37,286 bases of DNA from a virus, in IMG/VR virus record IMGVR_UViG_3300008110_000167, positions 1 to 37,286 of that record; one strand, written 5' to 3'. Each line of letters starts with the position of its first letter. Position 1 is the first letter of the stretch. Positions 1 through 37,286 of this stretch are shown here, in pieces. A program made the position numbers and the translations under genes. The notes under the pieces were generated by a model. The model saw nothing but the letters and a program-made list of their open reading frames with translations, searched no databases and had not been told where the DNA came from.

Positions 1-97
1 TACAATGTATATATTACCTTACTAGTATTTATATAGTACATTGCATATTAATTACTATTACTTACTATATATAATATATAGAGTATATAGATATATA

Positions 98-117
98 CAA
101 TTAACTTACGTTAATTG
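98..117. promoter_or_regulatory. Perfect inverted repeat, operator candidate
   Basis: CAATTAAC, a TTAC spacer, then GTTAATTG form a perfect 8-bp-arm palindrome in an AT-rich region. It lies 26 bp upstream of the -35 of the first rightward promoter, a usual position for an activator or repressor site. Which protein binds it is unknown; the HTH proteins at 8359 and 9310 are the only obvious regulators in the rightward arm. Confidence 0.5.
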
Positions 118-143
118 ATTAAAATATATTACATGCATACTGC

Positions 144-171
144 TTGCAATAATAACCTGAGCATATATAAT
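144..171 (+). promoter_or_regulatory. Sigma70-type promoter of the rightward arm
   Basis: TTGCAA (144-149), a 16-bp spacer and a perfect TATAAT (166-171) give a good sigma70 promoter, predicted start near 178, about 36 bases before the first gene at 214. The flanking sequence is very AT-rich, so other -10-like boxes occur (for example TATAAT at 70-75), but this pair has the best -35 match and spacing. Confidence 0.6.
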
Positions 172-213
172 AGTACTCAGCAGCACAGATAAACCTTAAC
201 GGGAGATTAGAAA

Positions 214-327
214 ATGAAAGCACTGGAAATCATCGCAGGAGTAACACTGGCAGCCGGAGCGGTTTACGTGATTGGTGTTATTGCTCTTGCGTTCTGCTAC
301 CACACTCTCAAAGCGTTAGGTATGTAA
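214..327 (+). CDS. Small single-span membrane protein, 37 aa
   Basis: I do not recognise a family. The ATG follows GGGAGATTAG with good Shine-Dalgarno spacing, and the frame runs to TAA at 325-327. The product is almost entirely one hydrophobic helix (about residues 5-29) with a short polar end that reads HTLKALGM. It is the first gene after the promoter at 144-171 and is followed at once by a terminator-like hairpin, so it may be made in excess over downstream genes. Tiny early membrane proteins of phages often interfere with host envelope functions or exclude other phages, but nothing here shows which. Confidence 0.55.
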   Translation: MKALEIIAGVTLAAGAVYVIGVIALAFCYHTLKALGM

Positions 328-334
328 TCATATC

Positions 335-360
335 AAGCCGGTCTAACCGGCTTTCCTTCC
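335..360 (+). terminator. Hairpin terminator or attenuator after the first gene
   Basis: AAGCCGGT (335-342) pairs perfectly with ACCGGCTT (346-353) across a 3-base loop and is followed by a pyrimidine tract (TTCCTTCC). The T run is interrupted, so partial termination is more likely than a full stop. It sits between the 37-aa gene and ardC. Confidence 0.55.
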
Positions 361-380
361 TATTCTCAGGAGATTAGACA

Positions 381-1256
381 ATGACTATATATCAAGAAAT
401 AACAGATTCAATCATCGCTGAGCTTGAAAAGGGTGCAGCGCCCTGGGTTAAGCCCTGGGCATGCGAAGCCGGTGCAGACAAGAATATCCTTACCCAAAAG
501 CCCTATCGCGGCATCAATCGTCTACTGCTGGCAATGGTTAGCGGCATCAAAGGCTATAACGTACCAGTCTGGGGAACGTATCAGCAGTGGCAACAACTAG
601 GCGGACAAGTTCGTAAGGGCGAGAAAGCCGCAAAGATCATCTACTGGAATCAGGCCAAGGATAAGAAAGCGGAATCAGCTGGCGAAGATAAGTTTTACCA
701 ATTTGCAAAAGCTTATTTCATCTTCAATGCTTCGCAGGTTGACGGTATCGAGATTAAACCTGCTGAGATAACCGCTGAATCAAAGCTTGCAAAGATTGAA
801 GCTTGTGAAAAGCGTATTGCTGATACCGGAGCTAAGTACAGTATCGGCGGGGATGTTGCCTGCTATATCCCTTCGATTGATTCAATCAGGATGCCAGCAT
901 TAGATACATTCACCAGTGCCGAGCATTACTACGCTACCTTTTTCCATGAATTAACACATTGGACAAGCGATAAATCACGCTGCGACAGGGATTTAAGCAA
1001 GGGAAGATTCGGCAATGCTGACTATGCTTTCGAGGAGCTTGTTGCCGAACTGGGTGCAGCATTTCTCTGCAATAGCCATGCAATAGCCGGTGATCTTCGC
1101 CATGCCGGATACATTCAATCATGGCTGAAATGCCTTAAAAACGATTCTAAAGCGATTTTCAAAGCTTCAGCACTTGCTCAACAAGCTTCAGACTTTATCC
1201 TTGCCAGTGGGCAGGAAAAGCCGGTTCTCGAAGATTCAGAACTGTTAGCTGCATGA
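381..1256 (+). CDS. ArdC-like antirestriction protein with zincin metallopeptidase domain
   Basis: This 291-aa protein has the ArdC layout. The N-terminal part (about 1-130, starting TIYQEITDSIIAELEKG and including PYRGIN and a GYNVPVWGTYQQW-type segment) is the single-strand DNA-binding ArdC_N/DUF1738 domain. The C-terminal part carries a zincin motif HELTH at 189-193, with Glu residues in EELVAELGAAFL (about 218-229) as the likely third metal ligand. ArdC proteins are carried by plasmids and phages and protect incoming DNA against type I and some type II restriction enzymes. Early position, straight after the first promoter, fits a role on entry. The start has a GGAGATTAGACA leader. A hairpin follows the stop, so it may be a near-monocistronic unit. 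The family call is firm; the antirestriction role here is inferred. Confidence 0.88.
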   Translation: MTIYQEITDSIIAELEKGAAPWVKPWACEAGADKNILTQKPYRGINRLLLAMVSGIKGYNVPVWGTYQQWQQLGGQVRKGEKAAKIIYWNQAKDKKAESAGEDKFYQFAKAYFIFNASQVDGIEIKPAEITAESKLAKIEACEKRIADTGAKYSIGGDVACYIPSIDSIRMPALDTFTSAEHYYATFFHELTHWTSDKSRCDRDLSKGRFGNADYAFEELVAELGAAFLCNSHAIAGDLRHAGYIQSWLKCLKNDSKAIFKASALAQQASDFILASGQEKPVLEDSELLAA

Positions 1257-1262
1257 AACAAG

Positions 1263-1289
1263 GCAGGGGGTTTTCCCCTGCTTACTTAC
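1263..1289 (+). terminator. Hairpin after ardC
   Basis: GCAGGGG (1263-1269) and CCCCTGC (1275-1281) form a 7-bp GC-rich stem with a 5-base loop, followed by TTACTTACC. It looks like a weak intrinsic terminator or a 3'-end stabilising hairpin. Confidence 0.45.
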
Positions 1290-1307
1290 CTTCAAAGGGG
1301 ATTAGAC

Positions 1308-1496
1308 ATGTCAATACTTTGTGCTCCGGAATACATTAACCAATTATGTGATTCATACGATATTTACGAATATCGGATTCTCATTCTCGTTACATTTCCA
1401 GATGGCAAGCAAATAATTACCGAAAGCGCTGAAATAGCCAATGCCATGCAAGCAAACGGCGCTGAGACTCGTCATATCACTGAATTGGGAGAATGA
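1308..1496 (+). CDS. Hypothetical early protein, 62 aa
   Basis: No family recognised. The start has the strong leader GGGGATTAGAC directly upstream (1297-1307). The product is small, acidic and soluble, with a likely beta-hairpin (EYRILILVTFPDGKQIITE) in the middle and an Ala-rich helix after it. The stop is followed after one base by the start of a 27-aa membrane peptide, so the two are probably co-translated. Confidence rests on the ribosome-binding site and on coding-like composition. Confidence 0.6.
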   Translation: MSILCAPEYINQLCDSYDIYEYRILILVTFPDGKQIITESAEIANAMQANGAETRHITELGE

Positions 1497-1497
1497 C

Positions 1498-1581
1498 ATG
1501 CAGACCATCCTTGAAATGCTGGCAGGGGCTTTTGGTTTCCTGATCTTATGGGCTTTTCTTTACGTTTTGTTATCTTTTTAA
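1498..1581 (+). CDS. Tiny membrane peptide, 27 aa
   Basis: The ATG lies one base after the TGA of the previous gene, which suggests translational coupling (its own upstream GGGAGAATGAC serves as ribosome-binding site). The product is one hydrophobic helix: MQTILEMLAG, then FGFLILWAFLYVLLSF to the end. No family recognised. It may be a membrane partner of the preceding 62-aa protein; this is inference from the spacing only. Confidence 0.45.
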   Translation: MQTILEMLAGAFGFLILWAFLYVLLSF

Positions 1582-1582
1582 A

Positions 1583-1603
1583 TAAGACGTTTTAAGACGT
1601 TTT
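1583..1603 (+). repeat. Two tandem copies of TAAGACGTTTT
   Basis: TAAGACGTTTT occurs at 1583-1593 and, sharing one T, at 1593-1603. A third perfect copy is at 2215-2225. The copies bracket the two-gene unit at 1683-2217. Possible remnant of a recombination event or a protein-binding site. Confidence 0.5.
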
Positions 1604-1610
1604 ATCACTT

Positions 1611-1640
1611 AGGGTTGTCAGGGTATCGGCAACCCTATTT
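1611..1640 (+). terminator. Hairpin, possible terminator
   Basis: AGGGTTG (1611-1617) pairs with CAACCCT (1630-1636) across a 12-base loop and is followed by ATTTCAT. The T tract is poor, so this may be an attenuator or mRNA-end structure rather than a strong terminator. Confidence 0.4.
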
Positions 1641-1682
1641 CATGGCCTTGTACGGGCTTTAAATCAATTTATAGGGGATATT

Positions 1683-1985
1683 ATGGGCAAGCACACACCG
1701 GGGCCTTGGTGGTTCGCGGAAGATATTGACGATACATACACAATCGGGCAGGGGGATGTTTATTTTTGTACTGTCCACGAAAACCAATTAAAACCCTATA
1801 CAAAATTGGGCATCTTCGATAGTGGTGATAAAAAAGATAATGCACGTTTAATTGCTTGCTCTCCCGAATTGCTTGAAGCATTGGAAAACCTTGTCAGGGG
1901 CGTACCAGATACGTGGCCCGCAGCAATTGAAGCAAAAAAGATTATTTCAAAAGCAAAAGGGGAGGCAAATAATGGGCAAGTTTAA
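1683..1985 (+). CDS. Conserved phage protein with HTPGPW and NARLIA motifs
   Basis: This 100-aa protein belongs to a widespread phage family of unknown function recognisable by an N-terminal HTPGPW (residues 4-9) and a central NARLIACSPELLEALE (about 53-68) followed by a C-terminal helix rich in Ala and Lys. Start ATG follows TATAGGGGATATT with good spacing. The stop overlaps the next gene by 14 bases, so the two are translationally coupled. The function is not known for the family; it is typically found in early or accessory regions of phages of Gram-negative bacteria. Confidence 0.75.
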   Translation: MGKHTPGPWWFAEDIDDTYTIGQGDVYFCTVHENQLKPYTKLGIFDSGDKKDNARLIACSPELLEALENLVRGVPDTWPAAIEAKKIISKAKGEANNGQV

Positions 1986-2217
1986 AGATTCACTTATCAG
2001 ACATCAGGAAATCTGCGATAGACCATTGGCTGCAAAGGGTCTGACAAGTTACCGATACCGTGGCCGTTATGGCTGGATAATGATCGGTGCGCTAAATGCA
2101 GCAGACGCAGTACGAGAAGCGCAACGAAGTACGCATGGAGATATTGACCTTAACAATCTTGAAATATGGCAGGAAGGGAAGTATCAAAAGATCAACTATG
2201 AAGTAATAGCGATATAA
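1972..2217 (+). CDS. Conserved hypothetical phage protein, 81 aa
   Basis: The start at 1972 is chosen because AGGGGAGG lies 9 bases upstream; an open frame continues further 5' but inside the previous gene. The product contains SYRYRGRYGWIMIGA followed by a DAVREA helix and ends in a short strand (NLEIW), an arrangement I have seen in small phage proteins of unknown function. It is co-transcribed with the 100-aa gene it overlaps. The TAA stop is part of a TAAGACGTTTT repeat. Confidence 0.65.
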   Translation: MGKFKDSLIRHQEICDRPLAAKGLTSYRYRGRYGWIMIGALNAADAVREAQRSTHGDIDLNNLEIWQEGKYQKINYEVIAI

Positions 2218-2225
2218 GACGTTTT
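2215..2225 (+). repeat. Third copy of TAAGACGTTTT
   Basis: Exact copy of the 11-bp repeat at 1583-1603. Its first three bases are the stop codon of the 81-aa gene. Confidence 0.5.
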
Positions 2226-2235
2226 CCTGCTGGAT

Positions 2236-2265
2236 GGTATCCTACCCTACGGGATACCCGATTTT
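2236..2265 (+). terminator. Hairpin terminator candidate
   Basis: GGTATCC (2236-2242) and GGATACC (2252-2258) form a 7-bp stem with a 9-base loop, followed by CGATTTT. A second possible hairpin follows at once (GCCCCTA 2267-2273 with TAGGGGC 2293-2299, 19-base loop). Confidence 0.5.
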
Positions 2266-2317
2266 CGCCCCTACGCGCCCGTATAAAGGTTCTAGGGGCA
2301 TTTAATTTGGAGGTTCT

Positions 2318-2521
2318 ATGTCACGCCCTAAGTTACGCGCAGTCACTCCGCTGGCACACCCGGCCAAGCAGCCGGATGCGAGACCCAAAAGAGTTGAGCA
2401 AGAAAAGATCACTTCGATTCTCGATCAGAGATTCAAGTACACAAGCTCAGCAGCCACTGACCTACGCGCTAAGTTCAAAGCACTCGGGTTCAAACCCACA
2501 AAACCCAAACGAGTAAAGTAA
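2318..2521 (+). CDS. Small basic hypothetical protein, 67 aa
   Basis: The start is fixed by TTGGAGG seven bases upstream. The product is strongly basic (Lys/Arg-rich, ending KPTKPKRVK) with a predicted helical core (EQEKITSILDQRF, then TDLRAKFKALGF). A nucleic-acid-binding role is plausible from charge alone. It is the last gene before the origin-like region and is followed by the strongest terminator of this arm. No family recognised. Confidence 0.65.
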   Translation: MSRPKLRAVTPLAHPAKQPDARPKRVEQEKITSILDQRFKYTSSAATDLRAKFKALGFKPTKPKRVK

Positions 2522-2550
2522 CTGCCTAAAAAATAGGCAGTCCTTTATAT
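2521..2550 (+). terminator. Intrinsic terminator
   Basis: ACTGCCTA (2521-2528) and TAGGCAGT (2534-2541) form a perfect 8-bp stem with a loop of five A, followed by TCCTTTATAT. It ends the first rightward transcription unit just before the origin-like region. Confidence 0.7.
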
Positions 2551-2838
2551 AATTATGTATATGTAAGAGATAGAATAATAGTCGATAGTACTTACGAAGT
2601 AAGGACTAAGGTAGTTTGTAATGTAGTAGTACTAATGTAGTACCGTACTATATTCTATATAACCAAGAATCATGCCAGCTAAGTTATTCACAGGTTGTCC
2701 ACAGAGTTATCCACAGACATTTTGATAACTATTGATTCTTGATAACTAGTAGATATTATTCATTGGCAATAGAATAGTGTATTGAACTACATTGTTTACG
2801 TGCAACTTCGCACAGATTAGACTTAAAGGGGATTAGAA
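2542..2838. other. Gene-free region with DnaA boxes: origin candidate
   Basis: About 300 bases without a gene. Three DnaA-box-like 9-mers lie in the same orientation: TTATTCACA (2684-2692), TTGTCCACA (2695-2703) and TTATCCACA (2707-2715), the last being the Escherichia coli consensus. Their starts are 11 and 12 bases apart, close to one helical turn. TTGATAACTA occurs twice just downstream (2722-2731 and 2739-2748) in AT-rich sequence that could unwind. Upstream, TAATGTAGTA is repeated at 2619-2628 and 2633-2642, and CTTAC-GAA-GTAAG is an inverted repeat. This is the architecture of a DnaA-dependent origin. No replication initiator, helicase or polymerase is seen in the window, which fits use of the host replisome. 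Confidence 0.6.
2732..2759 (+). promoter_or_regulatory. Candidate promoter in the origin region
   Basis: TTGATT (2732-2737), a 16-bp spacer and TATTAT (2754-2759) resemble a sigma70 promoter that would read into the operon starting at 2839, since the previous unit is closed by a terminator. It overlaps the TTGATAACTA repeats. Confidence 0.35.
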
Positions 2839-3102
2839 ATGACTTATCTTAAAGACATAAAAGTATGTGTTGATTGCACCTTTTATGGCACTCCGCATGG
2901 GCAGCGTGATCGTTGCATCCATCCTACTATGACCAAAATAGACTTGGTTACTGGCAAAGAAGAATACCCATATTGCTACGCGCAACGTCAAATAGACCAT
3001 CAGGATTACTGCGGTCATAACGCTCGTTTCTTTGTGCTAAACGAAGAAGCCGCCCAACGCCGCAAGGAATTCGAGGAGGTCTGCCGTGACTCACCCTTCT
3101 GA
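2839..3102 (+). CDS. Cys-rich, probably zinc-binding small protein, 87 aa
   Basis: The start has a GGGGATTAGAA leader. Residues 10-60 carry five Cys and several His (CVDC at 10-13, CIHP near 26, YCYAQR, YCGHNARFF), a pattern typical of a small zinc-binding domain. Phage proteins with a CVDC...DRCIHP...CYAQR...CG..ARFF layout are common and uncharacterised. It opens the operon that leads to the recombination genes. The C-terminal helix overlaps the start of the next gene by 17 bases. Confidence 0.7.
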   Translation: MTYLKDIKVCVDCTFYGTPHGQRDRCIHPTMTKIDLVTGKEEYPYCYAQRQIDHQDYCGHNARFFVLNEEAAQRRKEFEEVCRDSPF

Positions 3103-3268
3103 TAACCCATCGGTACAAGCCATAGTGCCAGCAGAGCAATATGTTGAGTTGCTTAAGCAGGTACTTGAGATGAACAAAATCATTGTTGAGCAAAACGCAT
3201 CTATTGTCCGTTGCGTGACTATGCCGCCTTTGGTTTATAAGGAGCCAACAATAAATGCACCCTTCTAA
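3086..3268 (+). CDS. Hypothetical protein, 60 aa, GTG start
   Basis: GTG at 3086 is preceded by GAGGAGGT (3073-3080), one of the best ribosome-binding sites in this arm, which supports the GTG. The product is mainly one amphipathic helix (EQYVELLKQVLEMNKIIVEQNASIV) and could form a coiled coil. It overlaps both neighbours. No family recognised. Confidence 0.6.
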   Translation: MTHPSDNPSVQAIVPAEQYVELLKQVLEMNKIIVEQNASIVRCVTMPPLVYKEPTINAPF

Positions 3269-3476
3269 CTTTCCCAGAGGACTAGCCTCACCGACCGACC
3301 TAGAGCGGGTTATCAGCAAGGTCACAGCCATCTATGAGGATGAATTAGGCGATGACTTGGGCGCATGGGGAGCAGTAACTATGGTGCTGCTGACCATCAT
3401 CTGTGACATGGCTGAAGCAGACATTCATCAGGTAGCAGACGCGCTCAAACGAGGCGAGAAAGGAATGATGCAATGA
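3255..3476 (+). CDS. Hypothetical acidic protein, 73 aa
   Basis: The start lies inside the end of the previous gene, with AAGGAG 10 bases upstream. The product has a central hydrophobic helix (GAWGAVTMVLLTIICDMAEADIHQVADALKRG) within an acidic context, more likely a packed soluble helix than a membrane span. The stop overlaps the next start by 4 bases (ATGA). No family recognised. Confidence 0.65.
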   Translation: MHPSNFPRGLASPTDLERVISKVTAIYEDELGDDLGAWGAVTMVLLTIICDMAEADIHQVADALKRGEKGMMQ

Positions 3477-3751
3477 GACAACTTGCACTTATAGCCCTGT
3501 TTTACTGTGCATTTTCTTATGCCGCCGATCAATGGTTCGAGATGCCGAACAATGCCGGAGGGAAAATAATCCTGATGATGAGTTCTTGCGGTAGTTCTGA
3601 GAACGGCAAGCTTGTAATTGCCACGACTCCACAAGGGAAGAACGTACAGGGATGCTGGTACTACTTCGCAAACATGGTTCACATCGCATGGAAGAACGGA
3701 GACAGTAGCAGCTTCGACCCTAAAGACTTCACATTCAAGGAAACCAAATGA
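3473..3751 (+). CDS. Exported small protein with signal peptide, 92 aa
   Basis: Residues 1-18 (MRQLALIALFYCAFSYAA) are a clear Sec signal peptide: Arg, hydrophobic core, then a SYA-A type cleavage site. The mature part of about 74 residues has two Cys (in SSCGSSENG and GCWYYF) that could form a disulphide in the periplasm, and a C-terminal WKNGDSSSFDPKDFTF segment with the look of a small beta-rich domain. Overlaps its neighbours by 4 bases on each side. Exported phage proteins made early often act in the envelope, for example in superinfection exclusion, but no such activity can be read here. Confidence 0.7.
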   Translation: MRQLALIALFYCAFSYAADQWFEMPNNAGGKIILMMSSCGSSENGKLVIATTPQGKNVQGCWYYFANMVHIAWKNGDSSSFDPKDFTFKETK

Positions 3752-4278
3752 CCATCACACTAACCCGCGAGGAAGCGCAGCAGGTGCTGGAACACTTGGA
3801 CGATTTGGTAGATGCCCAGCAATGGGAGATCGATATGCACTCAACGCAGTACGGTGAGGGCTACAAACCGCAGCGTATGAAGCACATGAAAGAGCAACTA
3901 GCCAATACGAACAAAACAATCGAACTACTCCGCGCCCGACTTGCGCAGCCTGAACCGGAGCCGGTGGCGTGGTTTACTGAGGATCACAGGGAAGATAAAT
4001 CAGCGACTACTTACAGTAAGAAAATGGCAGAGCGTTGGTTAGAAAAAGGTTGGCCTGTAACGCCACTCTACACCGCCCCACCACAGCGTAATTCAGTTAT
4101 TGATAAAACAATGGCAAAGAGAATTGCTACTCAATTAGGCTGGCAGCCTAAACGCGAATGGGTAGGGCTGACGGATGAGGAAATACGCAACGAAGCCAAC
4201 CATCATGTATTTGATGAGTCGTTCTTTAATGGCGCAATATGGGCGCGTGGACAAATAATGGGGAAAAACAATGGATGA
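3748..4278 (+). CDS. Accessory phage protein with EPVAW...PPQR...WVGLTDEEI module
   Basis: The 176-aa product has an N-terminal helical part (LTREEAQQVLEHLDDLVDAQQWEIDMHST, then a coil up to about residue 67) joined by a Pro/Glu linker to a module found in many phage accessory proteins: EPVAWF near 72, a variable middle, PLYTAPPQR near 110, and WVGLTDEEI near 138. The module is often annotated with DUF551-type proteins; its biochemical role is unknown. The next gene encodes a second copy of the module, so the pair probably arose by duplication. The stop overlaps the next start by 8 bases. Confidence 0.7.
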   Translation: MTITLTREEAQQVLEHLDDLVDAQQWEIDMHSTQYGEGYKPQRMKHMKEQLANTNKTIELLRARLAQPEPEPVAWFTEDHREDKSATTYSKKMAERWLEKGWPVTPLYTAPPQRNSVIDKTMAKRIATQLGWQPKREWVGLTDEEIRNEANHHVFDESFFNGAIWARGQIMGKNNG

Positions 4279-4753
4279 GAACAAGCCAGAAGTAAGATCG
4301 GACATTGACCAGATATATTCGGCAGTTATGGCAGACACCGAAGCGTTAGAAGATGCCAAGATGACTTTGGAAGTCATCAAGAAAACTGACCCCGGCGTTT
4401 ACGACGAGATGATTGACGACACGCTTTCTTTAATTCGCAGGGCGCTTAGCAAATCTATTCTCGGCGCTATTGATATGCTTGTAGATCCAGAGGAGCCAGT
4501 CGCGTGGGTAGTTTATGACAGTGAGAATAACGATATTGTCTGGACTGAAGCGGGTAAGAAATTAAAACAAAACACGCGGCTTTACACTTACCCACCACAG
4601 CGCGAATGGCAGGGGCTAGAAGATGACGAAGAAAGCCAAGAACTTTGGCTAAAAGTCATGGCAGACACAAAAAACAAAAGATACTTGCCTGTTTTTGAAT
4701 TTGCCCGCGCCATCGAAGCCAAGCTAAAGGAGAAGAATTATGACAAGTCCTAA
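4271..4753 (+). CDS. Second EPVAW/PPQR module protein, 160 aa
   Basis: Paralogue of the preceding protein in its C-terminal half: EPVAWVVYDS near 74, LYTYPPQREWQGLEDDEE near 104. The N-terminal half differs and is predicted to be helical and acidic (SDIDQIYSAVMADTEALEDAKMTLEVIKK). The C-terminal end (FEFARAIEAKLKEKN) matches the usual close of this family. It overlaps the exonuclease gene by 14 bases. Function unknown; position suggests expression with the recombination genes rather than a shared reaction. Confidence 0.65.
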   Translation: MDENKPEVRSDIDQIYSAVMADTEALEDAKMTLEVIKKTDPGVYDEMIDDTLSLIRRALSKSILGAIDMLVDPEEPVAWVVYDSENNDIVWTEAGKKLKQNTRLYTYPPQREWQGLEDDEESQELWLKVMADTKNKRYLPVFEFARAIEAKLKEKNYDKS

Positions 4754-5645
4754 TCAACAAGATTTCGAACCAGAAGTACGTAACGCCGCATGGTGGTCTA
4801 GCGACTCACGCATGGCTGTTAATGGCAGAGCAGCGCAAGCCATCCTGATTAAGCAGGGCAAGATGGAGCCGCCTGATCTGTCTGATATTGAAGAAGTCCA
4901 GATGGGTAAGGTAATGGAGCCAACCATCGCACGGCTGTTTCAAGACAAGCACAGGATTGAACTCAAAGACTTGGACTGGATAGGTCAGCACAGCAAAGAA
5001 ACATGGCTGAAAGCGCATGGCGACTATATCTCCGCTGATGGCAAGACATTGGTGGAGTGCAAGAACTATAACGCCGCCAGCATCAAGAACTTTGATGAAG
5101 ATGGCAACGTCATACCGCCAGCAGACTTCGTGCAGTTACTCCATGAGGCAGCGTGTTTCAACGTAGAGAACATCTATCTTGCTGTTCTGTTTGGTGGTCA
5201 GAAGTTCAGGACATATCACTTCACCATTGCGCCTGAACAAAAAGACGAGCTTGTGCAGACGATGGCTCAGTACTGGGGCATGGTGCAGTCAGGTGTTGCG
5301 CCAGAACCAGACAGTATTGAGGCTGCAAAGATCGTTTACCCGGTTGCTGATATTGACGCAATTGTGGCTACACAAGCAGCAGAGAAAGCTGTAGCGGTGC
5401 TTAAAGAGTACAAGGCTAGGATTAAGCACCTTGAAGGTGAAGCAGAGAAGGTAGAGCTAGAGCTACGCAAGTACATGGGCACTGCGCCAGCATTGTTGAC
5501 GGTGGATGGTCACACCCTAATAAGCTGGAAGAACGATAAACCGGGAATGAAGTTCGATGCCAAGCTATTCCAAAAAGCCATGCCGGATGTTTACCAGAAG
5601 TTTGTGGTCGAAACGACGGGTGTTAGACGCTTCCTACTTAAATGA
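4740..5645 (+). CDS. YqaJ-type (lambda exonuclease-like) recombination nuclease
   Basis: The 301-aa protein has the PD-(D/E)XK core of the YqaJ/lambda exonuclease family: GKVMEP near 56-61 (conserved Glu), HGDY near 93-96 (metal-binding Asp 95), and VECKNY near 105-110 (Glu 106, Lys 108 as the ExK motif), followed by QLLHEAACFN (the usual Q-x3-E/H helix). Such enzymes resect double-strand ends 5' to 3' to leave 3' single strands for an annealing protein. The C-terminal third (about 208-245) is a predicted coiled coil, often seen in phage YqaJ proteins. A RecT-like protein is encoded two genes later, giving a complete two-component recombination system. Confidence 0.85.
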   Translation: MTSPNQQDFEPEVRNAAWWSSDSRMAVNGRAAQAILIKQGKMEPPDLSDIEEVQMGKVMEPTIARLFQDKHRIELKDLDWIGQHSKETWLKAHGDYISADGKTLVECKNYNAASIKNFDEDGNVIPPADFVQLLHEAACFNVENIYLAVLFGGQKFRTYHFTIAPEQKDELVQTMAQYWGMVQSGVAPEPDSIEAAKIVYPVADIDAIVATQAAEKAVAVLKEYKARIKHLEGEAEKVELELRKYMGTAPALLTVDGHTLISWKNDKPGMKFDAKLFQKAMPDVYQKFVVETTGVRRFLLK

Positions 5646-5658
5646 GAGTGATAACGAT

Positions 5659-5874
5659 ATGTTACTTAATCAATCCACTAGGCATGTATTTGAAGCACTT
5701 AAATCTATGATTGAAAAGTATGAGGAAGCAGAAGACAAGGAAGAATTCTGCAACCCTGATGCGCCTTTGCTGATTACCATCAACGGTAAAAAAAACTATG
5801 TTTTAAGCGTTGGTGGTGATCCAGATGAAGAAGGCGTTGTTATCGAAGCAAAACCAGAATCCCTATGGAGATGA
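5659..5874 (+). CDS. Hypothetical acidic protein, 71 aa
   Basis: The frame is open further 5' inside the exonuclease gene, but the first Met outside that gene is at 5659, and composition changes there from an out-of-frame look to a normal acidic protein (MLLNQSTRHVFEALKS, then KYEEAEDKEEF). The ribosome-binding site is weak (GAGAGTG), so expression may depend on coupling to the exonuclease stop 14 bases upstream. It lies between exonuclease and RecT, a position often held by small modulators of the pair. No family recognised. Confidence 0.55.
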   Translation: MLLNQSTRHVFEALKSMIEKYEEAEDKEEFCNPDAPLLITINGKKNYVLSVGGDPDEEGVVIEAKPESLWR

Positions 5875-5877
5875 GAA

Positions 5878-6681
5878 ATGAGTAACTTAATACCAGTATC
5901 AGATATTCAAACGATGGCGGTAGCCGTAGCCAAGTCGGGATTGTTCGGAGTCAAGACAGCAGACGAGGCTATGGCCTTGATGCTGATCGCACAGGCAGAG
6001 GGGCAGCACCCTGCTATCGCTGCGCGTGACTACCATGTCATTCAGGGTAGGCCAGCACTGAAAGCAGACGCAATGATGGCTAGGTTCCAGCAAGCAGGTG
6101 GAAAGGTGGAATGGAAGGAGTACACAGATGAGCGAGTTACTGGCGTTTTTAGTCACCCCGCTGGTGGGTCTTTATCTGTCACGTGGACTCTTGAGATGGG
6201 GAAAAGCATCGGGCTGGTTAAACCGGGTTCTGGATGGCAAAAGTATCCACGAGCTATGCTTAGAGCGCGCTGCATCTCAGAAGGTATCAGAGCCGTATAT
6301 CCCGGCTGTGTCGCAGGTGTTTACACGCCAGAGGAAGTTGAGGATTTTGAGCCGAAATCAGCACCAGCGAAAGAAATCGATATGGGTGCAGCAGAGGTGG
6401 TTGAGGATATGAAGAAGCATAAGGAACAAGGTGAGCATTTTTTGCACTTCTTCGTTCCGGGTCAAGAGGAAGCGTACGCCTCGCTGGAGAATTTAGAAAA
6501 TTGGGAGATATGCTTTCATGACATGGTTCACAAGATTAAAGCCAGCCAGAAGCTTGCAGACGCAACCAAGCGCGACAAACTTAAATCTTTGAAAGATGTA
6601 AACAAAGCAGTAATTGATACGCTAGACGCTGTTACCAAGATGCGAGTCATGGCAGCAGCTAATTCATTGGAGGAAGTATGA
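5878..6681 (+). CDS. RecT-like single-strand annealing protein
   Basis: The 267-aa protein resembles the RecT superfamily: an N-terminal helical stretch (TADEAMALMLIAQAEGQHPAIAARDYHVIQGRPALKADAMMARF split over about 27-70), the beta region with GGKVEW and SVTWTLE, and the diagnostic KYPRAMLRARCISEGIRAVYP segment (about 122-142) followed by GVYTPEEV. RecT proteins coat 3' single strands and anneal them to complementary DNA. It is preceded by the exonuclease unit and overlaps a small SSB-like gene by 4 bases, so resection, annealing and strand protection are probably co-expressed. The C-terminal 100 residues are less conserved and mostly helical. Confidence 0.8.
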   Translation: MSNLIPVSDIQTMAVAVAKSGLFGVKTADEAMALMLIAQAEGQHPAIAARDYHVIQGRPALKADAMMARFQQAGGKVEWKEYTDERVTGVFSHPAGGSLSVTWTLEMGKSIGLVKPGSGWQKYPRAMLRARCISEGIRAVYPGCVAGVYTPEEVEDFEPKSAPAKEIDMGAAEVVEDMKKHKEQGEHFLHFFVPGQEEAYASLENLENWEICFHDMVHKIKASQKLADATKRDKLKSLKDVNKAVIDTLDAVTKMRVMAAANSLEEV

Positions 6682-6962
6682 AGTCAACACATGAGCAAGA
6701 GCCGGGGAAAGGCGTTCTGTTTACCAATGATAAGAAGCAGCCGGGTACACGCGCCCCAGACATGAAAGGCGGATTCACTGCCGACCGTGACATTAAACAG
6801 GGCGAGTGGGTAAAGCTTGCAGCTTGGACTAAGCAGACGAGGGTAGGCAGCTTGATTAGCTTGGCACAGGACAATTGGGTTCCTGATCCTAACTATAAGA
6901 AGCCAACAGAAGGCAGCAAGGTTAGGGAGTATACGCCTATGGATGACGAAGTGCCTTTTTAG
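6678..6962 (+). CDS. Small SSB-like protein with acidic DDEVPF tip
   Basis: The 94-aa protein has a middle part (GVLFTNDKKQPGTRAPDMKG..., WVKLAAWTKQTRVGSLISLAQ) with the strand pattern of a small OB-like fold seen in phage single-strand-binding-like proteins. It ends in MDDEVPF, nearly identical to the DDDIPF tip by which bacterial SSB docks its partner proteins. The gene overlaps the RecT gene by 4 bases. I infer a single-strand binding or partner-recruiting role in recombination or replication. The tip is directly visible; the OB fold is a judgement from pattern. Confidence 0.6.
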   Translation: MKSTHEQEPGKGVLFTNDKKQPGTRAPDMKGGFTADRDIKQGEWVKLAAWTKQTRVGSLISLAQDNWVPDPNYKKPTEGSKVREYTPMDDEVPF

Positions 6963-6981
6963 CATTTTGACAACTTGTCTA

Positions 6982-7011
6982 TTGTCATAGTAATGTCTTT
7001 TGCCTTAATAT
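6982..7011 (+). promoter_or_regulatory. Candidate promoter before the first HNH gene
   Basis: TTGTCA (6982-6987), an 18-bp spacer and TAATAT (7006-7011) could drive the HNH gene at 7033. The -35 is also one arm of an inverted repeat, TGACAA (6968-6973) with TTGTCA (6982-6987). This 70-base gap is unusual in an otherwise overlapping operon and probably came with the HNH gene. Confidence 0.35.
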
Positions 7012-7032
7012 TGGAAATCAATAGGAGGCAAT

Positions 7033-7677
7033 ATGAAACTTCGTAGAAATGCAATTGACATTACAGGGCATAGGTTTGGTCGATTGGTGGCAGTAAAACC
7101 AATTGGAAAGCAGGGAGGAAAGATAGTTTGGGAATTTGACTGCGACTGCGGAAATAAAGCCAACTATCTTTCTTTTCTTCCAAGAAAAGGGCACGTTGTT
7201 TCTTGTGGATGCTGGAGAAGGCGAAGAAATGGATTGGCTTCTAGCCGTTCATATCAAATTTGGACAAAGATGATTAAGAGGTGTAATCAAAAAAATGACA
7301 AAGACTACATAAATTATGGAGGGAGAGGAATTAGGGTATGTAAAAGATGGGAAGTTTTTGAAAATTTTTATGCTGATATGGGAGAAGTTCCAGAAGGAAT
7401 GAGTATTGACCGCATAAATAATAACGGTGGATATTCAAAAGAAAACTGCCGATGGGCTTCACAAAAAACTCAGCATAGAAATAAGAGAACTAACCATTAC
7501 ATTTCATTCCAAGGAGAAATAATGACAGTTTCAGATTGGGCTGAAAAACTTAACATTAACTGTTCTACATTATGGAAACGACTGAAAAGGAATCTCCCGC
7601 TAGAAAAAGCCCTAGTACCTCACCTACTCAACGGTCGCTCAAGTATTTACGTGAAAAAGGGTATCACTGTGAAGTAG
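7033..7677 (+). CDS. HNH-type homing-like endonuclease with zinc-binding N-terminus
   Basis: This 214-aa protein has an N-terminal zinc-ribbon-like part (CDCG at 37-40 and CGC at 58-60), a YGGRGIRVCKRW segment (95-106), and an HNH-like core SIDRINNNGGYSKENCRWAS (124-143) followed by QHRNKRTN, a widespread layout of free-standing phage endonucleases. The region from about 160 (ISFQGEIMTVSDWAEKLN) is a small helix-turn-helix used for target recognition. The gene is AT-rich with many AGA/AGG codons, unlike its neighbours, and has its own 70-base upstream gap and AGGAGG site: signs of transfer. The last 18 residues are an out-of-frame reading of the start of the next gene. Confidence 0.8.
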   Translation: MKLRRNAIDITGHRFGRLVAVKPIGKQGGKIVWEFDCDCGNKANYLSFLPRKGHVVSCGCWRRRRNGLASSRSYQIWTKMIKRCNQKNDKDYINYGGRGIRVCKRWEVFENFYADMGEVPEGMSIDRINNNGGYSKENCRWASQKTQHRNKRTNHYISFQGEIMTVSDWAEKLNINCSTLWKRLKRNLPLEKALVPHLLNGRSSIYVKKGITVK

Positions 7678-7925
7678 TCGAACGATGGAATCCTTGGACA
7701 AAACAAAGACGCGATCTTTGGACTTGGTGCGACATTCTGGCTATACGCAAAGACGAAGTTCTGGCAGTACAGGTTACGGCATCTGCTGTTGCTGACCGTA
7801 TAAAGAAGATTCAGGATTCAGAAACGGTAGCAAAGGTAAGAGAGGCCGGTATTCGTATCGAAGTACATGGACACAGAAAGAATTCTAAGGGAAAATACGT
7901 CATGCGTATTGAAGACATCTCTTAG
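7572..7925 (+). CDS. Conserved PD-(D/E)XK-like phage protein flanked by HNH genes
   Basis: From residue 18 on, the 117-aa product matches a conserved phage family that normally begins close to PTQRSL..LR..GY and continues with VVERWNPWTKQRRDLW, CDILAI, then VQVTASAVADRIKKI and a C-terminal WRKN..G.YV.R..D-S type ending; here HGHRKN and YVMRIEDIS. The DILAI strand plus VQVT resembles a PD-(D/E)XK nuclease core in which the ExK motif is replaced by QxT, so catalysis is uncertain. The only upstream start (ATG 7572) lies 106 bases inside the preceding HNH gene and has no clear ribosome-binding site; the first 17 residues look unrelated to the family. The 3' end is duplicated in the next gene (see 8312-8362). 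Confidence 0.7.
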   Translation: METTEKESPARKSPSTSPTQRSLKYLREKGYHCEVVERWNPWTKQRRDLWTWCDILAIRKDEVLAVQVTASAVADRIKKIQDSETVAKVREAGIRIEVHGHRKNSKGKYVMRIEDIS

Positions 7926-7933
7926 GAGCAATT

Positions 7934-8362
7934 ATGGAAATTTGGGTTCCTGTATACGGTTTTCCTAACTATGAAGTTTCTGACATGGGCAGGATTAAAC
8001 GTATCAATCATATAGCGCACCACGCTCGTTATGGAGATAGACATTTGCCGGAAAGGATGTTGAATCCCAGAAAAAACGGTGATGGATATTGGCGTGTAAA
8101 GATTGGCGGGAAGTTGCGTTTTGTTCATGTTTTGGTTTTAGAATCTTTTGTTGAGCCAAGGCCAGATGGTATGCAAGCTTGCCACAACAACGGAAAACCA
8201 GAAGACAACAGGCTTGAAAATCTTAGATGGGATACGCCATCAAACAATGTGGCCGATAGAAAACTTCATGGGACTTATCAATGGGGGAAGAACAATCCTT
8301 ATTGGAAATCTCGCAAGAACGTGAAAGGCCGTTACGTGATTAGAGTGGAGGATATATCGTGA
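7934..8362 (+). CDS. NUMOD4/HNH homing-type endonuclease with captured C-terminal tail
   Basis: The 142-aa protein starts with a NUMOD4-like domain (WVPVYGFPNYEVSDMGRIKRIN, split around residue 22) and continues with an HNH_3 type core: NGDGYWRVKI, FVHVLVLESFVEPRPDGMQ, CHNNGKPEDNRLENLRWDT and NVADRKLHGT. Enzymes of this kind nick or cut DNA and spread their own gene by homing. Family proteins normally end near HGT...; here residues 127-142 (RKNVKGRYVIRVEDIS) are a second copy of the C-terminus of the preceding gene. AGGAGC lies 7 bases before the ATG. The stop overlaps the GTG start of the next gene, a coupling that presumably belonged to the interrupted gene. Confidence 0.82.
   Translation: MEIWVPVYGFPNYEVSDMGRIKRINHIAHHARYGDRHLPERMLNPRKNGDGYWRVKIGGKLRFVHVLVLESFVEPRPDGMQACHNNGKPEDNRLENLRWDTPSNNVADRKLHGTYQWGKNNPYWKSRKNVKGRYVIRVEDIS
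8312..8362 (+). repeat. Recoded duplicate of the upstream gene's 3' end (copy of 7875-7925)
   Basis: Bases 7875-7925 encode RKNSKGKYVMRIEDIS-stop and bases 8312-8362 encode RKNVKGRYVIRVEDIS-stop. Twelve of 16 residues are identical and three more are conservative, but ten of those twelve identical residues use different codons; overall about 28 of 51 bases match. The downstream copy still overlaps the next gene's start (GTGA) and is probably the original end; the upstream copy would be the imported, recoded replacement. Confidence 0.75.
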
Positions 8363-8565
8363 ACGCAGCGCACTTGAGCAAGTCAGACAGGCTACAACGA
8401 GTATTCAATTTGTTATCTAAGGGAGGCGAACACACAACACTAGAAATTATTCAAAAGGCAGGTGTTTGTGCAGTCAATAGCATTATTTCCGAGCTACGGG
8501 CAAACGGCTTTGACATTAGCTGTGAGCGCCGGGCAAACAAGTGGTTTTATAGGATGACAATATGA
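8359..8565 (+). CDS. Winged-helix/HTH-like small protein, 68 aa, GTG start
   Basis: The GTG at 8359 overlaps the preceding stop, with GAGTGGAGG upstream as ribosome-binding site. The product (SKSDRLQRVFNLLSKGGEHTTLEIIQKAGVCAVNSIISELRANGFDISCERRANKWFYRM) has the helix, helix, recognition helix, beta-wing pattern of a winged helix: TLEIIQKAG and VNSIISELRANG as the HTH, CERRANKWFYRM as the wing. Proteins of this kind are common next to phage replication or recombination genes; a DNA-binding role is likely, target unknown. It overlaps the glycosyltransferase gene by 4 bases. Confidence 0.7.
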   Translation: MNAAHLSKSDRLQRVFNLLSKGGEHTTLEIIQKAGVCAVNSIISELRANGFDISCERRANKWFYRMTI

Positions 8566-9299
8566 CCAAGATATTCATAGCCACACCTATGTATGGTGGG
8601 CAAAACTACGGGTTCTATCTACAGTCTTTGCTACAGCTAAACAATCTACTCAGAGACAGCAACATAGAGTCTGTAATGTCTTTTATGTTTAACGAAAGCC
8701 TTATTACTCGTGGCAGGAACGCTCTGGCACACGGATTTCTGAAGACAGATGCAACTCATTTGTTCTTTATTGACGCTGATATTCAGTTTCACGCGCCAGA
8801 TGTTCTGAAGATGATAGAAGCAGACAAGGATGTTATCTGCGGAATTTACCCAAAGAAAGAGATTAACTGGCAGAGCATCAAGAATGCCGTAAATGATGGG
8901 GTAGAGACAGACCATCTTAAATACTTTACTGGTTCATTCGTGGTCAACCTTAAAGGTTATGAAGGCGCAGCAACTGTTCCAGTGGATAAGCCTGTTGAGA
9001 TATGGAACGGCGGCACTGGCTTCATGCTTATCAAGCGCGAAGTGTTTGAAAAGCTAAAGCCCATTGTTCCTGTGTACGTCAATGATGTTCTGGACTTGGC
9101 TGGCAATATTGGTGTTGAGGAAATCAGCCAGTTCTTCACAGAAAGCATAGAGCCGGAGACACGTAGGCTTTTATCTGAAGATTATCACTTCTGCAAAACA
9201 TGGCGTGATAACGGAGGGGAGATATACGCAGCACCATGGGCGGGGCTGACTCATATCGGAACCTACGCATTTGATGGAAAACTTCTACCCGCACCTTGA
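8562..9299 (+). CDS. GT-A-fold glycosyltransferase-like protein
   Basis: The 245-aa protein reads as a nucleotide-sugar glycosyltransferase: an N-terminal strand IFIATPMYGG (4-13), ITRGRNALAHGFL near 47, and FFIDADIQF near 68-76 with the DxD-like DAD that holds the metal and sugar nucleotide. CGIYPKKEI and NGGTGFMLIKREVFE follow, and the close DYHFCKTWRDNGGEIYAAPWAGLTHIG is typical of phage members of this group. The acceptor (virion protein, phage DNA or host surface glycan) cannot be told. It overlaps the HTH gene upstream by 4 bases. A second, unrelated glycosyltransferase is encoded at 35154-35936 in the other arm. Confidence 0.78.
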   Translation: MTKIFIATPMYGGQNYGFYLQSLLQLNNLLRDSNIESVMSFMFNESLITRGRNALAHGFLKTDATHLFFIDADIQFHAPDVLKMIEADKDVICGIYPKKEINWQSIKNAVNDGVETDHLKYFTGSFVVNLKGYEGAATVPVDKPVEIWNGGTGFMLIKREVFEKLKPIVPVYVNDVLDLAGNIGVEEISQFFTESIEPETRRLLSEDYHFCKTWRDNGGEIYAAPWAGLTHIGTYAFDGKLLPAP

Positions 9300-9309
9300 G
9301 GAGATAAAA

Positions 9310-9537
9310 ATGCACGGGCAAAAGATTGAATGCAAGATTCTTGATTTCTTGGCAGAGAAGATTGCGGCAGAACTTGGCGGTAAAGCTAATGATGCTGCTG
9401 TAGCCAAGTATTTTAAGATACAAGCACCAGTTATCAGCAAGATTCGTAATGGCAAGGCAAAGGTCAATTCAGACTTTATCCTATCCATTCACGAAAAGCT
9501 TGGCATCCCCGTAAAAGAAATCAGGGAAATACTTTAA
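9310..9537 (+). CDS. XRE/Cro-like HTH protein, 75 aa
   Basis: The ATG at 9310 is chosen over an earlier in-frame Met at 9271 because GAGGAG (9298-9303) lies just upstream of it and because the earlier start would reach into the glycosyltransferase gene. Residues 28-75 (DAAVAKYFKIQAPVISKIRNGKAKVNSDFILSIHEKLGIPVKEI in two halves around 47) have the helix pattern of an XRE-type HTH with SKIRNGK as the end of the recognition helix. A transcriptional regulator of the phage's own promoters is the natural guess; the palindrome at 98-117 is one candidate site. Confidence 0.68.
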   Translation: MHGQKIECKILDFLAEKIAAELGGKANDAAVAKYFKIQAPVISKIRNGKAKVNSDFILSIHEKLGIPVKEIREIL

Positions 9538-9539
9538 TC

Positions 9540-9641
9540 ATGGAAATATTTTCGGCAATACTCTTTATAGGAGGAATGCTAGTAGGAATTGGTTCTGCCT
9601 TACTTTTAGGGGCAGTCATCACCTACTTCATTTTTTGCTAA
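9540..9641 (+). CDS. Tiny membrane protein, 33 aa
   Basis: Starts two bases after the HTH stop and has AGGGAAA about 14 bases upstream. The product is a single hydrophobic helix with small-residue motifs (FIGGMLVGIGSALLLGAV) and ends FIFC. Last gene of the rightward arm; placed opposite the lysis end of the leftward arm. No family recognised. Confidence 0.45.
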   Translation: MEIFSAILFIGGMLVGIGSALLLGAVITYFIFC

Positions 9642-9650
9642 AATATTTGT

Positions 9651-9716
9651 GGGGCGAAAGCTGTGCTGGTCTTGATTAACCTTGGTCAGTGGTCAATCAA
9701 CACAGTGAGTAGCCCT
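9651..9716. terminator. Long hairpin where the two arms converge
   Basis: Nested pairing: GGGGC (9651-9655) with GCCCT (9712-9716), CTGTG (9661-9665) with CACAG (9701-9705), TTGATT (9672-9677) with AATCAA (9695-9700), ACC (9679-9681) with GGT (9691-9693), with a 6-base bulge CTGGTC on one side and a purine-rich internal loop. Neither strand has a long T tract (the leftward strand continues ACAAATATTTT), so it is either a bidirectional 3'-end structure or a structured RNA. It overlaps the stop of the last leftward gene. Confidence 0.5.
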
Positions 9717-9858
9717 ACCTATTACCGCTACGCTTGGCAGTCTTAGCCGAACGTATAAAGGCTTCTTTGGTTGGATAGCCTTTCTGACCCGGTTTCTTAG
9801 GCGGCAAGCCTTTCTCTCGGCGCTTGTTGATGTTGTAGTACAGTCCTTTTACCGGCAT
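9715..9858 (-). CDS. Small basic phage protein (GLYYNINKRREKG type), 47 aa
   Basis: Read from ATG at 9858, which lies six bases after GAGGAG; another ATG at 9864 touches that site and is less likely. The product contains GLYYNINKRREKGLPPKKPG, KGYPTKEAFIRSAKTAKRS: very basic and Gly/Pro-rich. Proteins with a GLY.NI..KR..I..G motif followed by a P(T)...F..SAKTAK tail recur in phages near structural or lysis genes; function unknown. Last gene of the leftward arm; its start overlaps the previous gene by 10 bases. Confidence 0.6.
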   Translation of the reverse strand: MPVKGLYYNINKRREKGLPPKKPGQKGYPTKEAFIRSAKTAKRSGNR

Positions 9859-13105: not shown

Positions 13106-13251
13106 CGCATACGCCCTCTAGCCTCTTTCTTTGCCTTACGAGCAACACTGTAAGCAATAGCCACGGCTTGCTTTTGAGGCTTGCCGCGTTTCATCTCTTT
13201 AGAGATGTTCTTGCTCATGGACTTCTGGCTATAACCTTTAACCATTGGCAT
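13102..13251 (-). CDS. DUF6496-like small basic protein, 49 aa
   Basis: The frame starts at 13251 with GGAG six bases upstream and ends in an ATGA overlap with the next gene. The product contains [24 protein letters not shown], the hallmark of the small basic phage family with a KxxRGKP.KQAVAIA..ARKA motif (DUF6496-like). Function unknown; the high charge suggests nucleic-acid or scaffold contact. Confidence 0.68.
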
Positions 13252-13260
13252 ATCTGTCTC

Positions 13261-13431
13261 CTATCGCTTCATCTTACGGTTGCCCATACGCTGTGGCATA
13301 GAAGGCTTCAGGGTGCGACCGAGTGCCTTCTGGGCATCCAGCGAACCGCGAACCTCATTCTCGCCACCACGGCGGGTGTCTTCTTCCATCTTGCGCATTT
13401 CTGCTTTTGAGTATTCTTTACCGTACATCAT
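13261..13431 (-). CDS. Small charged protein, 56 aa
   Basis: Three ATGs lie in frame (13437, 13431, 13428). GGGAG touches the first, so 13431, six bases after GGGAG, is preferred. The product (MYGKEYSKAEMRKMEEDTRRGGENEV..., ending MPQRMGNRKMKR) is short, charged and Met-rich. No family recognised. It lies between the first large internal-type protein gene and the DUF6496-like gene. Confidence 0.55.
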   Translation of the reverse strand: MMYGKEYSKAEMRKMEEDTRRGGENEVRGSLDAQKALGRTLKPSMPQRMGNRKMKR

Positions 13432-13443
13432 GTTCATCTCCCG

Positions 13444-37165: not shown

Positions 37166-37286
37166 AAACGCCGATGGCTTTTCGACGCACTTCACGCAAA
37201 GAAGAGACTACAGCATACACCAAAAACATGATTTTTCTTTGGGGCGGGAGCTGAATGGGGCACGCTCACGTCGGGGTCAAGTCCCC
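37166..37286. other. Right-end 121 bases without a recognisable gene
   Basis: No convincing gene. A leftward 33-codon frame (ATG near 37232) ends inside the terminator and looks like chance. The last bases, GGGGTCAAGTCCCC, can form a 4-bp hairpin. GGGGCGGGAGCTG near 37240 resembles GGGGCGAAAGCTG at 9651-9663 (11 of 13 bases). The sequence stops here, so nothing more can be said. Confidence 0.4.

Follow-up and report, generated by a model that had tools for sequence, protein, structure and literature searches.

A tandem array of three DnaA boxes lies in non-coding DNA upstream of the recombination genes of the virus studied here, and it may act as a host-DnaA control element. Of the functions considered, the most probable is that of a small DnaA-dependent origin carried in a swappable cis-module, a reading that is put slightly short of an even chance because the array has been lost repeatedly. 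The window, the whole stretch of DNA that was analysed, is the entire IMG/VR virus record of 37,286 bp, in which no end repeats or terminal repeat were found. The preliminary description had proposed that replication starts at the array with host DnaA and the host replisome. The conserved tandem boxes and the lack of replisome families agree with this, but the status of the array as an origin is weakened by promoter control, which fits equally well, by losses and swaps of the array, by similar arrays in T7-like phages and by a skew minimum elsewhere.

The three boxes share the plus strand, with starts 11 and 12 bp apart, exactly where they had been described (Table 1). They form the only tight DnaA-box cluster of the window, and the array stands out because the only two exact matches to TTATNCACA in the whole window, at 2684 and 2707, both lie inside it, while sites with at most one mismatch are rarer genome-wide than expected (25 observed versus 40 in shuffles). 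First-order Markov simulation of 300 sequences as long as the window never placed three TTNTNCACA sites in an equal span, and when 317-bp regions were simulated with matching composition, a box pair no more than 13 bp apart arose in 1e-4 of runs. The array therefore shows the clustering of consensus DnaA boxes that is looked for in an origin. The gap that holds it (2522-2838; 317 bp, 68% AT) separates two co-directional small genes and is the third-longest gene-free stretch of the window, not the largest as first stated, since 1-380 and 13106-13443 are longer. Low-stability DNA is present on both sides of the array, and the least stable place of the window is near position 45, within the stretch 1-120 at the contig start, before the ArdC gene; the least stable spot of several close relatives likewise lies just before ArdC. 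No DnaA-trio or E. coli-type 13-mers were recognised by eye beside the array. Both exact TTGATAACTA copies noted earlier are real; in aligned relatives, however, they are not conserved, the second being window-specific and the first shared with two near relatives only. Without this conservation, and with no Rep_3 or Phage_rep_O match, the region does not resemble an iteron-type origin. The reverse strand at 2664-2678 could be read as sigma54-like, but this was left as speculation because the -12 part varies. The Rfam search gave two matches in the window, both below the gathering score, and nothing at that score in the relatives searched.

Table 1. Features of the array region and of the downstream recombination genes in the window.
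Feature	Position	Strand	Remark
Terminator-like hairpin	2521..2541	+	After the upstream gene
AT-rich (72%) low-stability stretch	2540..2660		Upstream of the array; other modules in its place in some relatives
Conserved motif CAAGAATCATGCCAG	2664..2678		Just upstream of the boxes; ATGCCAG part retained in array-less relatives
DnaA box 1, TTATTCACA	2684..2692	+	Mostly TTAT[CTG]CACA in relatives
DnaA box 2, TTGTCCACA	2695..2703	+	Middle box; variable, often weaker
DnaA box 3, TTATCCACA	2707..2715	+	
Two TTGATAACTA repeats	2722..2748	+	Exact copies start at 2722 and 2739
Candidate sigma70-type promoter TTGATT-16-TATTAT	2732..2759	+	Sequence prediction
Conserved motif TATTATTCATTG (W-ATTAYTCATTG)	2754..2765	+	Kept with or without the array
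Small Cys-rich protein	2839..3102	+	First gene downstream of the array; identifies the corresponding site in relatives
YqaJ/RecE-like exonuclease	4740..5645	+	
RecT-like annealing protein	5878..6681	+	
SSB-like protein	6678..6962	+	Weak match; C-terminus DDEVPF

The array is conserved well beyond the window. RecT, terminase and exonuclease searches collected about 200 loci, dozens of which hold clusters of DnaA boxes; clusters of at least two boxes in relatives numbered 50, versus 0-5 for control patterns. In six near-complete genomes (G001, G003, G005, G006, G007 and G013) the array is bordered by homologues of the two genes that flank it in the window, and each array-bearing near-complete genome carries one array. 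Boxes were present in 43 distinct upstream regions, with two or more boxes in 42 (window included); their spacing is mostly 11/12 or 22-24 bp, and the middle box is often degenerate. The last box stands at one of two distances, about 28 or about 38 bp, from the ATTAYTCATTG motif in 38 of the 43 box-bearing regions, and a -35-like TTG has a single fixed offset from this motif in 23 of the 40 distinct sequences listed, counts that are drawn from related sequences and do not represent independent events. The two distances differ by one helical turn, and the sequence between varies freely among groups. In the clade of the window, 45 of 56 distinct exonuclease rows carry the array. As a real tandem array, conserved and phased in relatives that, like the window, show no replisome or initiator families, it is likely to bind host DnaA.

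The statement that the window encodes no polymerase, primase, helicase or initiator was confirmed by a Pfam scan of its 61 ORFs, which gave no match to these or any other replication family. DnaB_C, DNA_pol_A, IstB/DnaC-type, Rep_3 and Phage_rep_O domains were absent from 18 family genomes (the window and 17 relatives) in a search that detected its positive controls, and ORF calls in twelve relatives gave no large unassigned early gene suited to a helicase or polymerase. A small, highly diverged initiator may be present among the small early proteins. Since neither the window nor its relatives yielded replisome families, the phage, judged by its gene content, probably uses host replication factors. 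An ArdC-type antirestriction gene lies upstream of the array, and the late genes occupy the strand opposite to the early, array-side genes. A small protein at 7572-7925 is conserved in close relatives and appears PD-(D/E)XK nuclease-like by eye, with no PHROG match. The description of the phage as strictly lytic was not borne out: no integrase match was obtained, but an XRE-type HTH ORF was seen by eye. A near DNA search with bases 1-9800 gave no match among phages. No host is claimed because terminase relatives occur in MAGs of different phyla, and 16 genomes from one MAG family that holds such relatives did not contain a three-box pattern. Family contigs L164-L168, binned in MAGs of different phyla, are probably mis-binned phage.

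A role of the array in replication control is favoured since nothing else in the genome is recognisably able to recruit the host replisome. In the DnaA-dependent origin that we propose, the binding array would consist of two or three boxes, often in a strong-weak-strong order with a phasing of about one helical turn, within a swappable non-coding module placed before the recombination operon. Host DnaA would bind this array cooperatively and open the adjacent AT-rich DNA and/or stimulate the adjacent promoter, as at the lambda origin. The host DnaB-DnaG-Pol III machinery would then load, and the phage exonuclease, RecT and SSB-like proteins could continue replication by recombination. By analogy with ori-lambda, replication and transcription roles of the array may be combined.

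The main evidence against a fixed origin is the instability of the array. In an exonuclease tree (n=75) the array label changed 12 times, 10 of these changes being forced by supported branches, and some labels of absence may reflect decayed or shortened sequence (e.g., L018, L037). The flanks and promoter are retained without boxes in G004, G015, L043, L045 and L110, and several more distant family members also carry no array. In G002, L325, L357 and L359 the boxes are replaced by CTATGGCTAT repeats. These iteron-like repeats, at about 1590-1730 of L171 (G002) and about 2751-2825 of L325, comprise direct copies 18 bp apart together with inverted copies, and no matching initiator gene was seen in either. 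L131, L138, L140 and L143 instead have paired boxes in the gap that separates ArdC from the terminase side. No replication gene was seen to have been gained in near-complete relatives in which the array is absent or replaced. The array is thus not kept in all near relatives that equally lack replication genes, as would be expected, though not strictly required, of a sole origin. The broader proposal, that a family of tailed phages devoid of replisome genes uses host DnaA to initiate replication at a mini-oriC with two or three boxes, for which near relatives swap in iteron-like or palindromic cis-elements, is more tentative than the origin reading of the window's array. Other rearrangements were observed near the module: in L003 and L050 other DNA separates the array from the motif, and in these and L358 an opposite-strand endonuclease-like gene, recognised by eye, is apparently inserted between array and promoter motif; the boxes of L050 look decayed. 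GC-rich non-coding DNA upstream of the small Cys-rich gene in L182, L163 and L188 shares GGGGCCATGACCCAGCCC-like blocks that resemble structured RNA.

Strand asymmetry gives limited help in locating an origin. The GC-skew check suggested earlier placed the cumulative minimum at 37226, a divergent gene junction about 2.7 kb from the array, and the maximum at 9691, a convergent junction. The skew mostly follows gene orientation, as transcription alone would give, and whole-genome skew was therefore rejected as proof of an origin. In co-directional early genes, third-position skew was lower to the left than to the right of the array in every array-bearing genome tested (only marginally in G018), and the same difference was present in most array-less genomes. 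In G000, G001, G003, G005 and G013 this skew changes 0.4-1.1 kb downstream of the array, and at fourfold sites the signal was weaker and came mainly from one gene, ArdC. Third-position skew thus weakly favours an origin in the neighbourhood, and not the array itself.

DnaA is known both to activate and to repress transcription, and the strongest competing explanation, which remains the less probable at roughly one chance in three, is that it acts here as a transcription factor: the array would regulate the candidate promoter and tie the exonuclease-RecT operon to host DnaA, while replication starts elsewhere or by recombination. Promoter control fits the geometry equally well, since the last box of the window lies 16 bp upstream of the candidate -35, a spacing whose helical phase is conserved. 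Across relatives the last box lies 5 or 15/16 bp upstream of the -35, spacings one helical turn apart, and the TTG is mostly fixed 16 bp from the -10; the boxes therefore hold the fixed helical phase expected of a DnaA-regulated promoter, the promoter itself being a sequence prediction. Promoter-like matches of equal strength are no commoner in the array region than by chance, so that the candidate rests on its conservation. In some relatives, L171 (near 1305-1480) and L003 among them, the promoter motif is followed by a structured-looking leader of about 170 nt before the next gene starts, as if transcripts began at the motif; Rfam gave no match in those leader-bearing relatives that were searched. 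At ori-lambda, DnaA stimulates transcription and may contact RNA polymerase (PMC8203912). Against regulation of this promoter, array-less L043 keeps a promoter nearly identical to that of L041, the relocated paired boxes sit in the ArdC-terminase gap, and each genome has a single array.

The remaining explanations are weaker. Titration, in which phage copies soak up host DnaA and stop host initiation in a datA-like manner, appears improbable: arrays can occupy different positions and are also present in T7-like phages with their own replisome, but the boxes are few and a sink needs no fixed phase to a promoter-like element. A role in DNA entry, packaging or another structural function is more doubtful still; such a role was proposed for the T5 injection stop signal, which a 2026 paper describes as characterised by repeats and DnaA boxes (PMC13250531), whereas the window array is internal and upstream of an operon. 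Single weaker boxes do arise by chance, but for the array as a whole a chance match or composition artefact carries almost no weight, being already refuted by conservation and by the cluster statistics.

DnaA-box arrays are not confined to this family. At least 120 viral contig stretches carry the two-box tandem pattern, although some IMG/VR contigs may be misclassified plasmid or chromosome. Similarity to the phage family of the window was detected for only 8 of 80 two-box loci among the matches listed. In annotated phages, 375 records match the three-box query at a loose limit, among them T5-like terminal repeats with DnaA-box pairs in the terminal repeat/injection-stop region. In the Autographiviridae P483 (Escherichia phage) and phiEap-1 (Enterobacter phage), dense arrays (L365:3900-4040 and L366:2925-3040) lie in non-coding DNA on the RNA-polymerase side. 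T7-like phages of this group bring their own replisome. Because arrays occur in both T7-like and T5-like phages, finding such an array in a phage is not enough to demonstrate an origin driven by DnaA.

If the DnaA-dependent origin is real, a tailed phage would be under the direct control of the host replication initiator, its growth should be tied to the host cell cycle, and it would be a natural minimal DnaA-origin reporter. Even as a promoter switch, the array would suggest that host DnaA serves phage early genes as a sensor, and the arrays in many other viral contigs extend the question to a wider, little-studied pattern.

Literature searches gave no direct precedent for a DnaA-dependent lytic tailed phage among the papers listed, and the known systems each resemble the array in part. 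With bacterial oriC it shares tandem TTATNCACA boxes, turn-length phasing and adjoining AT-rich DNA, but it has only two or three boxes, no recognised DnaA-trio or 13-mers, and a position beside an early promoter. Like the array, the DnaA boxes of the T5 injection stop signal lie in non-coding sequence of a tailed phage, but that phage is much larger and the boxes are in its terminal repeat. In P483 and phiEap-1, too, several TTATCCACA sites follow one another in tandem within non-coding DNA; unlike the window, these phages have T7-type replication, and their arrays occupy a long gene-free stretch, not one before a recombination operon. In transcriptional activation at ori-lambda, as proposed here, host DnaA would act near a phage promoter and origin, but lambda encodes O and P, whereas no such families were found in the phage of the window.
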